From the IMG/VR virus record IMGVR_UViG_3300010296_000032, positions 1 through 34,851 of that record: 34,851 bases of DNA. One strand, written 5' to 3'. Source of the stretch: a virus. The stretch's first letter is position 1, and every line of letters begins with the position of its first letter. The notes beneath the pieces were generated by a model. The model saw only the letters and a list, made by a program, of their open reading frames with translations. It ran no database searches and was not told the origin of the DNA. This document shows positions 1 to 4,482 of the stretch, piece by piece. The position numbers and the translations under genes were made by a program.

Positions 1-1345
1 TACTGCCTGGTTTTGGATCACCAGTTACAGCAGTCTTAAGTTTGGAACCTGGGTTCTCACGGCGATATGCCTTAACTGCTGCAGGACTCATTCCATCAGT
101 TTTATCTGACTTGTTGACTTTCTGCCAATCTTCCATAAACTGACCAAAGGATTTATTTTGCTCTTTCACACAACGGTTATAAGTTTTACCAAAGAGTTTT
201 TGAGTTCCTGCTTTCTTATAACCTTTCCAACACTTCTTACCTTTACCTTCTTCAAGCATTCTGCTTCCAATACCATCAGTTGGTTGAAGTGGTTCTGGTT
301 TAATAATGTCAATTGACTCAATTTCCAGTGCTTTAAAGTCATCTCTCCAATTGGAATAATCATAGTTTTCATTCTTTGTTTTATTACCCCAATTTGCGGC
401 ACCAACTTTACGGCACTTGACTAGAGCACCAGAAGCATAAGCACTTGGCCAAACATCATATCTTGATTTTACTTTCTTATAGCAAGCATCTTTTTTAGTT
501 TCTTCACCAAGAGGATTTTTTGGTCCTTGTAATCCCGTTTTATCAACATTAAACTTAAACTTTGCAGCACCTGTTGGTTTTGGTTGTGGTTTAGTTGCGG
601 AAGGTGGAATTGTGTCTCCAACTTTATATGGAATACCTTCAGAAACTATTTTACCCTTAGGTTCAAAATGTGCCTTTTCAAGATTTGCAGATCCTTTTGG
701 TGTTGGATCAATAAGTTTACCCCCACCATGTTTTTTAATGAGTGGATTCATTACTTTCTGCAATCCACCCTTTTCTGGTGGAATAGGAATTCCAATTTGC
801 TCTTCTCTTACAATCTTTGCCTTACCCTTTCTATTTGGGTTTGGATCTTCTCTACGCTTTTTCTTTGCCCTTCTTTCTCTTTCATCTTCACTCATAGAAG
901 CACGGTCGTCAGCATCACGACAGAATGGTTTGGTCTTCTGACCTGGTTGTTTAGCGCAGGGTTTTCCATCATACTTACCACCTGCTTGAACCCATCCACC
1001 ACCTTTAAACCAATCACGAAGTGAGTAATTTTTGTCTTTGGCAGACTTACCATCACGCTTACCTTCATCCATATAAGATGATGCAGCATCAGTATTGTGT
1101 TCAGTATCAGTAATCTTTGCCTGAACCCAAGCAGGAATATTCTTTTCCTTTTTACCGAGTGCTTTTCTCAGTTTTCTGATATTTTCTTCAGATTTTTTTA
1201 ACTGAGATTGTGCCATTGACACTTCATGATCTTTTTCTTTTGCTTCGTTCATTTTCTTTTTACGACCCTGACAATGAGCACGCTGAGAAAACCCTTTTGG
1301 GTCACCACAGTCAATAGACTTCTTGTACTTCTCAGACCAACCCAT
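1..1345 (-). CDS. DUF5872-like multi-motif basic protein, C-terminus beyond window
   Basis: A continuous frame of 448 codons runs from the ATG at 1345 to the window edge without a stop, so the C-terminus is missing. No biochemical function is known to me. Several short Cys/Trp/Gly motifs are strung together: IDCGDPKGFSQRAHCQGRKK (residues 11-30), WFKGGGWVQAGGKYDGKPC (112-130), KKDACYKKVKSRYDVWPSAY (284-303) followed by ASGALVKCRKVGAANWG (304-320), then KKCWKGYKKAG (370-380) and GMSPAAVKAYRRENPGSK (418-435). The GGGWVQ-KYDGKPC and VWPSAYASGALVKCRK elements are, from memory, what defines DUF5872 in phage and algal-virus proteins. Highly charged linkers (ERERRAKKKRRED, 155-167) and a Pro-rich stretch (residues 247-258) separate them. 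There is no signal peptide or membrane segment. It starts 14 nt after gp16 with no clear Shine-Dalgarno. In T4 order the next gene would be gp17, so this gene is inserted there or displaces it. Confidence 0.8.
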   Translation of the reverse strand, partial: MGWSEKYKKSIDCGDPKGFSQRAHCQGRKKKMNEAKEKDHEVSMAQSQLKKSEENIRKLRKALGKKEKNIPAWVQAKITDTEHNTDAASSYMDEGKRDGKSAKDKNYSLRDWFKGGGWVQAGGKYDGKPCAKQPGQKTKPFCRDADDRASMSEDERERRAKKKRREDPNPNRKGKAKIVREEQIGIPIPPEKGGLQKVMNPLIKKHGGGKLIDPTPKGSANLEKAHFEPKGKIVSEGIPYKVGDTIPPSATKPQPKPTGAAKFKFNVDKTGLQGPKNPLGEETKKDACYKKVKSRYDVWPSAYASGALVKCRKVGAANWGNKTKNENYDYSNWRDDFKALEIESIDIIKPEPLQPTDGIGSRMLEEGKGKKCWKGYKKAGTQKLFGKTYNRCVKEQNKSFGQFMEDWQKVNKSDKTDGMSPAAVKAYRRENPGSKLKTAVTGDPKPGS

Positions 1346-1359
1346 TTTTAGGTTATAAA

Positions 1360-1791
1360 CTATTCTTTATTATTTAGAAAACCTTGCTTGAGTAGTTTTT
1401 GAAGTTCTGATGTAGATCCAACAAAAACAGCGTTATTAGTAACTGTATTTGGTCCTTTATTATTTCCAACGTCTTCTTCTACATCTTTTAGCTTCTTTTG
1501 TAAATCAATAAGTTTATCTGTTGTATCAGCAACACTCTTAATTAACTGACCAGCAACCTCATATGCTCTTGGACTACCACCTTCACCGGCAAGTTCCATG
1601 ATACCGTTGATTGCTTCTTGTCCCTTTTCAATCAATGAGTACAGATTTGCTCTTGTATATTCATAATCTTTTTTAATATCAGTTGGTTTGTCGTTTTTAA
1701 CAACCTCTACTTCCGAAGGTTTTTCCTCCGCTTTTGTTATCTCATATGTAGTATTAAGAGACTCATCAATCGCATTAAATTTATCTGTCAT
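1360..1791 (-). CDS. 16: Terminase small subunit, gp16-like
   Basis: This 143-aa protein is likely the DNA-packaging terminase small subunit, which recognises concatemeric phage DNA and regulates the large-subunit motor. The central region (about residues 45-110) is predicted helical, with the motif AYEVAGQLIKSVADTTDKLI near residues 76-95 that I associate with T4-like cyanophage gp16. The N-terminal 40 residues are charged and probably disordered. The C-terminus (SELQKLLKQGFLNN) resembles the conserved tail of this family. T4 gp16 is 164 aa, so the length fits. It lies immediately after gp15, as in T4 (13-14-15-16), with a 7-nt gap and a weak GAG ahead of the ATG. The large subunit gp17 is not in the window. 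Confidence 0.82.
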   Translation of the reverse strand: MTDKFNAIDESLNTTYEITKAEEKPSEVEVVKNDKPTDIKKDYEYTRANLYSLIEKGQEAINGIMELAGEGGSPRAYEVAGQLIKSVADTTDKLIDLQKKLKDVEEDVGNNKGPNTVTNNAVFVGSTSELQKLLKQGFLNNKE

Positions 1792-1798
1792 AAATCAC

Positions 1799-2845
1799 TC
1801 ACAAATCTACTTTTCTAGTTGGACTAAAGTCTGCTCCACTTTCGAAGAAATCTAAAGACTCATTGAATCCAAAATCATCACCAACAACGATTCTAGAGTC
1901 ATCCGCAGTACTAAGAACATTTAGTTTTGTTCCATTGGCATGTTCTGCAGCAATTGTTGAATCATAACCCCTCTTAACAGTCATTGATGTGCTAGTTAGG
2001 TTGGTTATCTTCATAATTTCACTATCAATAATAACTCTTCCACCAACAGAAAGACCAGAAGTGTCATTTAATGAGATAATAGTTTCTGATGTATCTACTG
2101 CTTCCGTTAACAGTGCCCCAGTATCATTATCATAATCTTTTCTTGCTTGTGGTGTTGCTGTATATCTAACTTGTCTCTTAGCAGATAGTTGGTTAGTGTC
2201 GGTATAATAATCAACCTGAACCTTACGAATAATTCCTTCTGTACTATCAGCAATTGGACCGAACAGATATGTTTTTGCCGTAAATTGTAATGTATAGATT
2301 AGTGCTCTACGAGTGGAAAAATCACCCTCATAATCATCTTGGAAACTTATATTATCTAAAACAACTGGTATATCTCTCTTTTCGCCAATAGAGTCAATCA
2401 ACTCAACAGTAACATTAAATGATGGTTGAAAATATGGAAGAATTTGCTCTAATATCTGTAATGCATCATCATTTAATTTGGTTAAAATGTTTAATTCAAA
2501 TCCAAGATTATATGGTACAGGCATATAAACCTTTTTAACCCTAGTATTATCATCTACTGCTTTAAAAGTTTGAGTTACGGAAACTTTTCTAGTTGGATCA
2601 TATGAGATGCTATTCATCTCAAATGACATTCTTGGAAGATTAATTTGAACTGCTCTATTCAAATCTGCTTGCTGTTCCAACCTTGCCAAGAACTTTTGAG
2701 CAGGACCATATGCCAGAGGTACTTTTATTTCACTCTCAACATCACTGTTAGCATCATTATGCTTTACATAAATCTGATTAAACAGTGTTCCGAATGAAAC
2801 GACTGTTTTTCTGATTATTTCGTGATAAAAATAAGTTCCTAACAT
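1799..2845 (-). CDS. 15: Tail sheath stabilizer and completion protein, gp15-like
   Basis: At 348 aa this is the tail terminator that caps the sheath and tube and joins the tail to the neck. The N-terminus MLGTYFYHEIIRKTVVSFGT is the characteristic start of T4-like gp15, and residues 1-235 read as the conserved core (MPVPYNLGFELNI, FTAKTYLFGPI). An inserted module at about residues 250-310 (DTSETIISLND, VIIDSEIMKI, VKRGYDST, EHANGTKL) is absent from my expectation of T4 gp15 (about 272 aa) and is shared with other virion proteins here. The conserved end resumes with DFGFNESLDFFES. The start codon overlaps the gp14 stop by one base (TAATG), suggesting coupled translation. Confidence 0.92.
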   Translation of the reverse strand: MLGTYFYHEIIRKTVVSFGTLFNQIYVKHNDANSDVESEIKVPLAYGPAQKFLARLEQQADLNRAVQINLPRMSFEMNSISYDPTRKVSVTQTFKAVDDNTRVKKVYMPVPYNLGFELNILTKLNDDALQILEQILPYFQPSFNVTVELIDSIGEKRDIPVVLDNISFQDDYEGDFSTRRALIYTLQFTAKTYLFGPIADSTEGIIRKVQVDYYTDTNQLSAKRQVRYTATPQARKDYDNDTGALLTEAVDTSETIISLNDTSGLSVGGRVIIDSEIMKITNLTSTSMTVKRGYDSTIAAEHANGTKLNVLSTADDSRIVVGDDFGFNESLDFFESGADFSPTRKVDL

Positions 2846-4482
2846 TAATAAGTACCAAATGGATTGGATTCTGTAAAGTCAAGTATGAGATCTGCTTCCG
2901 TCTCAATCTCATCATTGTCAGTGTATTTATTATAGGTATCATCAGAACTATACGAACCAACAGCATAAGTCGCAGATGATGCCGATCCAACAACAGTCTC
3001 ACCAGGAACAAAGTATCCATCAATTATTGATATCTTCATAGTATTTGTAGTTGAATTCCACTCTTTAACCCTTGCTGTAGTTCCACTTGTAGAACCAGTA
3101 ATAAGTTCATTGAATTGGAATACGCCAGATCCAGAAACCAATGGTGGGTTAGATATTGTAACTGTTGGTGCTTCTGTATATCCAATACCAGGATTTACAA
3201 TTCTAATAGCAGTTACAATATTTCCCGAAGAAATTTCTGCCTTCGCCACTGCTCTTACTGCTAGTGTAGGGTCTTTTATAGAATCACTATTGTCTATTGT
3301 AACCGCAGGATCACTACCATATCCACTTCCAGCATCTACGATGGTTAGAGAAGTTACTGTTCCACCAACACCAATTGTTGCTGTTGCTGTTGCTGTTGTA
3401 CCACTACCGACTGGGGAAGCAATGGTTACGACTGGTGCCTGTGCGTATGCCACACCAGCATTTACTAGTGTTAGTGATGCTACGGTTCCTCCAATACCAG
3501 TCGTTGCTGTTGCCACTGCTCCTAACGATGGCTGAGCAATTGTGACGGTTGGGATGGTTGGATATCCAGATCCACCATCGTCAACTGCGATAGAAACAAC
3601 GCCTTTATTAGATGTTTCTATTGAACAAGTTGCCGCTGCTCCAGTACCACCACCACTATAGATGTTAATATTAGGTGCCACAGTATATCCAGAACCAGCG
3701 TTTGTTATTAATATTTCTTTTATAGATGCAACTCCACCTCTAGATGTTGTTATAGCAACTGCTGTAGCAGTTGATCCTCCTGTTGGAGCATCATCAAATT
3801 GAATAACCGGTGTAGAAGTATATCCATTTCCATCATTATTTAAAAATACTTCTCTAACATATCCACTATTGATAAGAGCAGAAGCAGTTGCTGTTTGCCC
3901 AATACCAATTAATTGTAAAGTTGTAATATATCCCTCTTCCTTGATCTGAGTATCAATTTCACCAATTGTAGTGTCTATAACTTCATCTTCATATTCGAAG
4001 AGTTCACACTTCAGTTGATAGACATAGTTTTTGCCTAATTGGTAGAAAGGATCTTCATGCTCTACAAACTTAACTTCAAATAATCTTTGTCCCAAAGGAA
4101 AATAAACCAAATCACCTTCTCTAGGTCTACTGGATAGGATAATTTCATCATCACTCTCACTTTCCAAGAATGAAGCAATGAAATCATCATATCTTTCCTT
4201 AGAAATGGTTATCGTTAGTTCATCTCTAAGAGACATTCCAAATTTTGTTAGTATATCTCCAGCACCAGAATGACCCTCATATGTGTTCACATATGCTTCT
4301 ATAGTATAATTGTCATCAAACTTGGAAGATTCGATCTCATTAAAAATCGTATCCTTATTGACAATCTTTCTTGGGATGTAGGTAACATCAACCCCATACA
4401 TCCTAAGTTGTTCATTAATTAGTTCTTGAACAAGTCTTTGTTCAGACTGAGAACCTTGTAGAAAGAAGGGATTTAGTGCCAT
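2845..4482 (-). CDS. 14: Neck protein gp14-like with inserted beta-repeat domain
   Basis: This 545-aa protein is twice the length of T4 gp14 (256 aa). gp14 and gp13 form the head-completion neck to which the tail attaches. The N-terminal part (residues 1-190; MALNPFFLQGSQSEQRLVQE, RPREGDLVYFPLGQRLFEVK, FEYEDEVIDT) is the gp14 core. Residues about 212-450 are six tandem copies of a 38-46-residue GxGY-xx-P-x-V-x-I repeat. A further module follows (FNELITGSTSGTTARVKEWN), and then the conserved gp14 tail (DLILDFTESNPFG). The repeats therefore appear inserted just ahead of the C-terminal tail, and they probably form a surface beta domain on the neck. The gene overlaps gp13 and gp15 by one base each (TAATG). 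Confidence 0.92.
   Translation of the reverse strand: MALNPFFLQGSQSEQRLVQELINEQLRMYGVDVTYIPRKIVNKDTIFNEIESSKFDDNYTIEAYVNTYEGHSGAGDILTKFGMSLRDELTITISKERYDDFIASFLESESDDEIILSSRPREGDLVYFPLGQRLFEVKFVEHEDPFYQLGKNYVYQLKCELFEYEDEVIDTTIGEIDTQIKEEGYITTLQLIGIGQTATASALINSGYVREVFLNNDGNGYTSTPVIQFDDAPTGGSTATAVAITTSRGGVASIKEILITNAGSGYTVAPNINIYSGGGTGAAATCSIETSNKGVVSIAVDDGGSGYPTIPTVTIAQPSLGAVATATTGIGGTVASLTLVNAGVAYAQAPVVTIASPVGSGTTATATATIGVGGTVTSLTIVDAGSGYGSDPAVTIDNSDSIKDPTLAVRAVAKAEISSGNIVTAIRIVNPGIGYTEAPTVTISNPPLVSGSGVFQFNELITGSTSGTTARVKEWNSTTNTMKISIIDGYFVPGETVVGSASSATYAVGSYSSDDTYNKYTDNDEIETEADLILDFTESNPFGTY
3125..3845 (-). repeat. Six tandem GxGY protein repeats inside gp14
   Basis: Six diverged units occur in gp14, each starting with a turn such as NNDGNGY, TNAGSGY, DDGGSGY, VNAGVAY, VDAGSGY or VNPGIGY. 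Each is followed by -xxxP-x-(V/I)-x-I, an Ala/Thr/Gly-rich strand and a G(G/N)-V-xS-(I/L) strand. Unit length is about 38-46 residues. At DNA level the units are imperfect, so the array is old or under protein-level selection. Confidence 0.85.

Follow-up and report, generated by a model that had tools for sequence, protein, structure and literature searches.

The closest described counterparts of the locus analysed here are proteins of the phage head. In T4, the internal head proteins IPI, IPII, IPIII and Alt carry a capsid-targeting sequence and are processed by the prohead protease gp21, which cuts after L/I-x-Glu and also divides the core proteins gp22, gp67 and gp68 into several fragments; the inner-body proteins of phiKZ-like phages are cut at S/A-x-Glu (PMC9026906). 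Among catalogued families, DUF6321 (PF19846) corresponds to the C-terminal module of the full-length relatives of our protein, PHROG 727 is a whole-protein family, and DUF5872 (PF19197) is a name also given to an algal giant virus protein (PMC12085832). All three are of unknown function, and none of their entries covers how the chain is organised, the sites at its junctions or the sets of stand-alone genes reported below. The literature searched contained no account of an internal-protein polyprotein in cyanophages, a result that does not by itself prove its absence.

In the ocean, T4-like cyanophages count among the most abundant viruses. The stretch of DNA analysed here (the window, 34,851 nucleotides) begins with a motif-chain ORF, a single open frame that starts with an ATG at position 1345 and is interrupted by the contig end (Table 1). 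Beyond gp16, the window encodes gp15, gp14 and gp13, every one on the minus strand, and this gene neighbourhood identifies the contig as a fragment of a T4-like cyanophage. The chain protein matches PHROG 727, whose function is unannotated, with a profile E of 2.1e-67, as well as 369 phage records, nearly all from Synechococcus or Prochlorococcus phages, and about 400 IMG/VR stretches, so the ORF is not a chance one. The original prediction had placed it beside the terminase small subunit, which Pfam and PHROG 445 matches bear out, and in the gp16-to-gp17 slot. The gp17 gene of the window phage lies off the contig; complete relatives confirm the slot, with the chain gene between gp16 and gp17 and mostly within a few genes of them, as for S-SM2_109 and S-SM1_115 (Sullivan T4-GC119). 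This interval has been named a variability hot spot (PMC3037559). Nearly all complete family members end with a DUF6321 module and full-length relatives clear its curated Pfam cut-off (e.g., 83.8 bits vs 28.5), whereas the truncated window copy, which lacks roughly the last 40 residues that complete the module in relatives, gives no Pfam DUF6321 match. The window copy matched no known enzyme, and PADLOC was blank for it and for three relatives. Elsewhere in the window, gp14 (2845-4482) carries, from about residue 190, GSGY..P.VTI-type repeats in a long C-terminal extension, which match PHROGs belonging to unrelated tail and head proteins, and gp15 (1799-2845) has a C-terminal extension from about residues 219-250 that resembles segments of tail fibre proteins.

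Table 1. Features of the motif-chain ORF and its neighbour (window positions; cut sites and secondary structure are predicted)
Feature	Position	Strand	Remarks
Motif-chain ORF	2..1345	(-)	448 aa, open at contig end; PHROG 727 / T4-GC119 member
Module SIDC, aa 3-31	1253..1339	(-)	Invariant Cys 13 and 25
Predicted cut site 1, MNE|AK, Glu34	1244..1246	(-)	Junction motif
Module HEVS, aa 38-93	1067..1234	(-)	Predicted helical hairpin; best-modelled region of the protein
Predicted cut site 2, MDE|GK, Glu94	1064..1066	(-)	Junction motif
Module DWF, aa 108-177	815..1024	(-)	Cys 130 and 142; podovirus homolog resembles second half of DUF5872
Predicted cut site 3, VRE|E, Glu181	803..805	(-)	Junction motif
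Variable linker cassette EKGG, aa 193-236	638..769	(-)	From profile comparison with relatives
Predicted cut site IVSE|G, Glu236, end of EKGG cassette	codon 638-640	(-)	Junction motif
Predicted cut site LGE|E, Glu281	503..505	(-)	Junction motif
Module CYKK, aa 284-324	374..496	(-)	Cys 288 and 311; weakly matches first half of DUF5872
NWR segment, aa 328-354	284..364	(-)	From profile comparison with relatives
Predicted cut site MLEE|GK, Glu365/366	248..253	(-)	Junction motif
Module CWKG, aa 370-394	164..238	(-)	Cys 372 and 392; predicted beta hairpin
Targeting-sequence-like KSFGQFME|D with predicted cut site, aa 398-405	131..154	(-)	70-aa cassette of contig L008 inserts here
Module DUF6321, from aa 405	2..133	(-)	Truncated by contig end
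gp16 terminase small subunit, neighbour	1360..1791	(-)	Pfam DNA_Packaging 1.4e-08; PHROG 445 3.7e-53

We propose, with a probability of about 0.6, that the window protein is an internal head polyprotein that gp21 cuts into DNA-associated mini-proteins. The chain would be built into the assembling prohead together with the scaffold, as part of the prohead core; gp21 would then act at the cassette junctions, cutting behind [L/I/V/M]-x-Glu and freeing small, mostly basic, cysteine-paired mini-proteins; these would remain associated with the packaged DNA and may leave the head with it during ejection. We infer the cleavage from the motif, its placement, cassette exchange and stand-alone genes, and the DNA association of the units from their charge and gene context. 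Like the T4 internal proteins, the units would be small, packaged in the head and cut after hydrophobic-x-Glu, and sister genes of the chain carry an N-terminal targeting sequence, MK[ST]F..F[ILM].E, almost identical to the T4 sequence MKTYQEFIAE. Each T4 internal protein is, however, a single protein with one propeptide, whereas the chain fuses many cassettes with a predicted site before each, and we saw no sequence relation between the modules and the mature T4 internal proteins. As a multiply cut core protein the chain would also resemble gp22, gp67 and gp68, but their fragments are mostly lost from the head, whereas the chain units are conserved, basic, cysteine-paired and encoded by separate genes elsewhere. 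With the phiKZ-like inner-body proteins it would share DNA association in the head and processing by a prohead protease at several propeptide sites; those, in contrast, are large folded proteins with propeptides and not chains of exchangeable mini-proteins.

To define the cassettes, we built module profiles from window segments and their relatives. These yielded a fixed vocabulary of SIDC, HEVS, DWF, CYKK, CWKG and DUF6321, joined elsewhere by YMFF, IPKG, CPKC, DUF5661 and DUF192, and profile comparison showed that modules differ in order and number among relatives. The window order is SIDC-HEVS-DWF-EKGG-CYKK-NWR-CWKG-D6321, compared with CPHG-D5661-DWF-SIDC-CYKK-HEVS-CWKG-YMFF-D6321 in DSL-LC02 and HEVS-IPKG-CWKG-EKGG-DWF-CYKK-NWR-YMFF in S-SCSM2R. 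Some relatives split the chain over several genes, and genomes that encode a chain have modules in further proteins as well, next to the cytidylyltransferase/NMNAT gene and, for P-TIM68, in a gene behind gp23. The gp23-gp3 interval was rejected as a general second site, with no module gene in 80 gp23 loci despite the P-TIM68 case. Near-identical phages can differ by the presence or absence of a whole cassette, often with the boundary at the junction motif: the protein of contig L008 differs from the window protein by one residue and one 70-residue cassette, which is inserted exactly at QFM|EDWQ and itself ends in EPEGEII|EDWQ. Among 23 cassette indels, taken from pairs with much sequence in common, 13 have the junction motif at both ends (null expectation 0.4-0.8). 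The shuffled order and number of the motifs, together with their stand-alone occurrence described below, agree with the original view of them as independent small units.

The motif [L/I/V/M]-x-Glu directly precedes nearly every cassette, and the next residue is mostly Ala, Gly, Asp, Lys or Glu. It stands at the module start in 21/23 SIDC, 29/33 HEVS, 38/43 CYKK, 38/43 CWKG and 32/35 DUF6321 copies, compared with composition-preserving shuffle means of 2.3, 5.3, 17.4, 11.9 and 11.8, respectively; relatedness inflates these counts, as shared ancestry survives shuffling, yet five unrelated modules and unrelated linkers carry the motif. It is rarer within modules (38 seen vs 70 expected), and in chains kept out of pattern-finding [LIVMF]xE was present in 41 of 57 cases against a shuffled mean of 19. 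The isolated DWF module has a site in only 6/15 cases, apparently because its cassette starts about 13 residues upstream of the profile, as at MDE|GKRDGKSAKDKNYSLRDWF in the window. The distance from cut to module is fixed in 29/29 SIDC and 40/41 DUF6321 copies and the motif is encoded by 96 different 9-mers, indicating that the constraint acts on the protein; the same diversity of 9-mers makes a DNA-level recombination signal an unlikely cause of the motif. Against the polyprotein reading, V or M precedes x-Glu at about half of the junctions (106/210 sites), whereas T4 gp21 prefers L or I. For comparison, among about 50 distinct gp23 sequences from cyanophages almost every one has a single L(V,I)xE|A/T/Q/S site, mostly LxE|A/T/Q, that closes the N-terminal propeptide region and, judging from T4, is presumably the cleavage position; V is rare there and M never occurs.

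At their starts, the sister genes of the chain resemble T4 internal proteins. T4 IPII and IPIII start with MKTYQEFIAE|A, and small module genes beside the chain start with MKSFQQFLSE|S, MKTFKQYITE|A, MKTFSQFITE|A and similar sequences of the general form MKSFxxFLSE|S. An ORF with a targeting sequence follows the chain gene in 22 of 41 cases. A scan of the S-SZBM1 genome (minus about the last 10 kb) returned three annotated genes with a T4-type targeting sequence and one spurious ORF; the annotated carriers are two module genes of the gp16-gp17 slot and the virion cytidylyltransferase. Over 50 kb of T4 only ipII and ipIII carry the sequence, and 463 kb around gp23 held four such ORFs. The window chain itself starts with MGWSEKYKK and has no N-terminal targeting sequence, nor was a match found across the window, so we do not claim formal membership among T4-type internal proteins for it; the chain does carry KSFGQFME|D internally. 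The targeting sequence offers a simple predictor of capsid-carried cyanophage proteins.

Virion data exist for several relatives. SSCSM1_29 of S-SCSM1, a positional ortholog between TerS and TerL with the modules IPKG-DWF-CYKK-CWKG-CPKC-YMFF-D6321, is labelled 'virion protein' in its record, a mark that the TerS and TerL of the same record do not bear. The S-SCSM1 paper reports mass-spectrometric virion proteins (PMC9602691), and reading record and paper together we take the label to denote such detection. S-CREM2 gp137, which consists of YMFF and DUF6321 in the same slot, was detected in virions by 4 peptides at 4.1% coverage (PMC10665884), as was S-SZBM1_139, which carries a CWKG module (PMC9146016). 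S-SZBM1_194, a chain in the gp16-gp17 slot, is not among the detected S-SZBM1 virion proteins. Virion presence is shown for positional orthologs of the window protein and not for the window phage itself. The search of virion proteomes that the original prediction had suggested thus returned these two orthologs and the module protein S-SZBM1_139, and its proposal of an internal head protein gains support from the virion ortholog and from the targeting sequences on sister genes. That prediction was right in part overall; it did not notice that cassettes are exchanged, that protease-type sites mark their junctions or that sister genes lie beside the chain.

In unrelated marine podoviruses the modules also occur as separate tiny genes, often directly adjacent, within head-gene clusters. 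CYKK, DWF and D6321 are adjacent genes in contigs from SAR11, flavobacterial and other assemblies; Roseobacter phage CRP-7 has the order D6321, CYKK, DWF, TerL, with the trio immediately before TerL, and in contig L281 the trio has the portal on one side and the major head protein on the other. Lone DUF6321 genes occur in Pelagibacter and Microcystis phages, and podovirus P-SCSP1d has one directly after its major capsid gene; the cryo-EM paper on its relative P-SCSP1u makes no mention of this gene. Two further contigs, L146 and L162, were discarded as terminase neighbours; in L146 the supposed TerL ORF has neither Pfam nor PHROG support. The stand-alone units have median pI values of 10.3-11.9 and a net charge of +0.24 to +0.32 per residue, and a T4-type start is found in only 3 of 125 distinct units from other contigs. 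We give even odds to a broader arrangement: in marine T4-like phages the internal head proteins would be made as one polyprotein, an array of cysteine-paired cassettes resembling histones or protamines that the prohead protease separates inside the capsid, and in unrelated marine podoviruses separate genes would supply the same mini-proteins.

The same units bear on the original description of the chain as DUF5872-like. The whole protein gives no match, and neither it nor its CYKK module reaches the curated cut-off of 27.5 bits, but a weak and real likeness holds for two modules: CYKK alone aligns to PF19197 positions 11-42 (E 0.013, 16.5 bits), and a podovirus DWF homolog to positions 49-99 (5.9e-06, 27.3 bits vs the cut-off of 27.5). 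DUF5872 looks like CYKK and DWF joined. AlphaFold modelled the whole window protein poorly (mean pLDDT 48); in 10-residue blocks the modules mostly reach about 55-83 (weak to moderate) and the linkers, at about 28-45, are disordered. The DUF6321 unit models moderately (74.6), with structure matches limited to other DUF6321 proteins; PDB profile matches to Gas7 and thioredoxin reductase were marginal and set aside.

If the chain were not cut at all, it could serve in the virion head as a modular protein, its beads binding DNA or protein and strung on a flexible tether whose acidic linkers mimic protease sites by composition. Such a tether would suit the basic beads and acidic linkers, the disorder of those linkers between weakly to moderately structured modules and the presence of orthologs in virions. 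We consider it unlikely, given that the motif is commoner at five unrelated modules than in composition-preserving shuffles and rarer than expected within modules, that indels often stop exactly at the motif, and that some relatives break the chain into several genes; moreover, the beads are separate proteins in podoviruses, so they are unlikely to need staying joined. A role as packaging accessory, in which the chain is a DNA-binding adaptor of the packaging motor and a partner of gp16 and gp17, draws on its constant position between these genes and on the CRP-7 trio before TerL. It appears improbable, however, since in pelagiphage-like podoviruses module genes either follow the major capsid protein or lie in the interval from portal to major head protein, away from terminase, since the cyanophage genomes hold further module genes beside the cytidylyltransferase and behind gp23, and since SSCSM1_29 is in the virion whereas neither TerS nor TerL bears the virion mark in that record.

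T4 IPI acts against a restriction enzyme, and the chain might likewise carry injected effectors, its units or fused cargo domains acting on the host after ejection. The variable cargo of the slot, with an S-adenosylmethionine lyase in S-SZBM1_194, DUF192 in S-SM2 and DUF5661 in others, and the high cassette turnover keep this a possible but distinctly less probable reading. The core modules are very basic and strongly conserved across hosts and phage families, so a structural DNA role fits better than host-specific effectors; as a second role, effector delivery is compatible with an internal head polyprotein. The original prediction had also suggested that the spaced cysteines (13, 25, 130, 142, 288, 311, 372 and 392, positions that are exactly right in the translation) bind zinc. 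IPKG and CPKC modules of the family do contain three or more cysteines with CxxC spacing, but each of the window modules SIDC, DWF, CYKK and CWKG has exactly two invariant cysteines, 11-22 residues apart, with no conserved His partner pattern, and two per module make no zinc site by themselves. Pfam and PDB profile searches of the window protein gave no zinc-finger match either, and a chain of zinc knuckles thus seems very improbable.

The polyprotein reading would give a testable head role to a gene that is present in several hundred sequenced records and annotated as hypothetical in nearly all of them. If true, many internal proteins would be packaged by way of a polyprotein, and some of the variability at the gp16-gp17 hot spot would be explained. 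Cyanophages, pelagiphages, roseophages and, via DUF5872, algal giant viruses would then be linked through their small basic genes.

Several additional ORFs with targeting-like sequences were noted. The cyanophage NMNAT/cytidylyltransferase (L097, 1655-2860; L099, 4390-5478) starts with MKSFTSFFTEA or MRFRQFIIEA, near the T4 capsid-targeting sequence; this enzyme has repeatedly been reported in virions, unexplained, and the start may be its packaging route. Two ORFs of gp23 loci start with MKTFQQFMAEAAPF (L207, near 2653) and MKTFKQFVIEATPF (L234, near 4546) and are candidate internal head proteins. In S-SZBM1_194 (L090, 9253-11376), the S-adenosylmethionine lyase domain lies right behind TYREFIAE|G, and the protein is perhaps a capsid-carried anti-restriction enzyme. 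Finally, an ORF of a Nonlabens xiamenensis contig (L307, 1282-1551) combines a T4-type start, MKNFAQYIE|EDWQ, with one DUF6321 unit, that is, a targeting sequence followed by a single unit.
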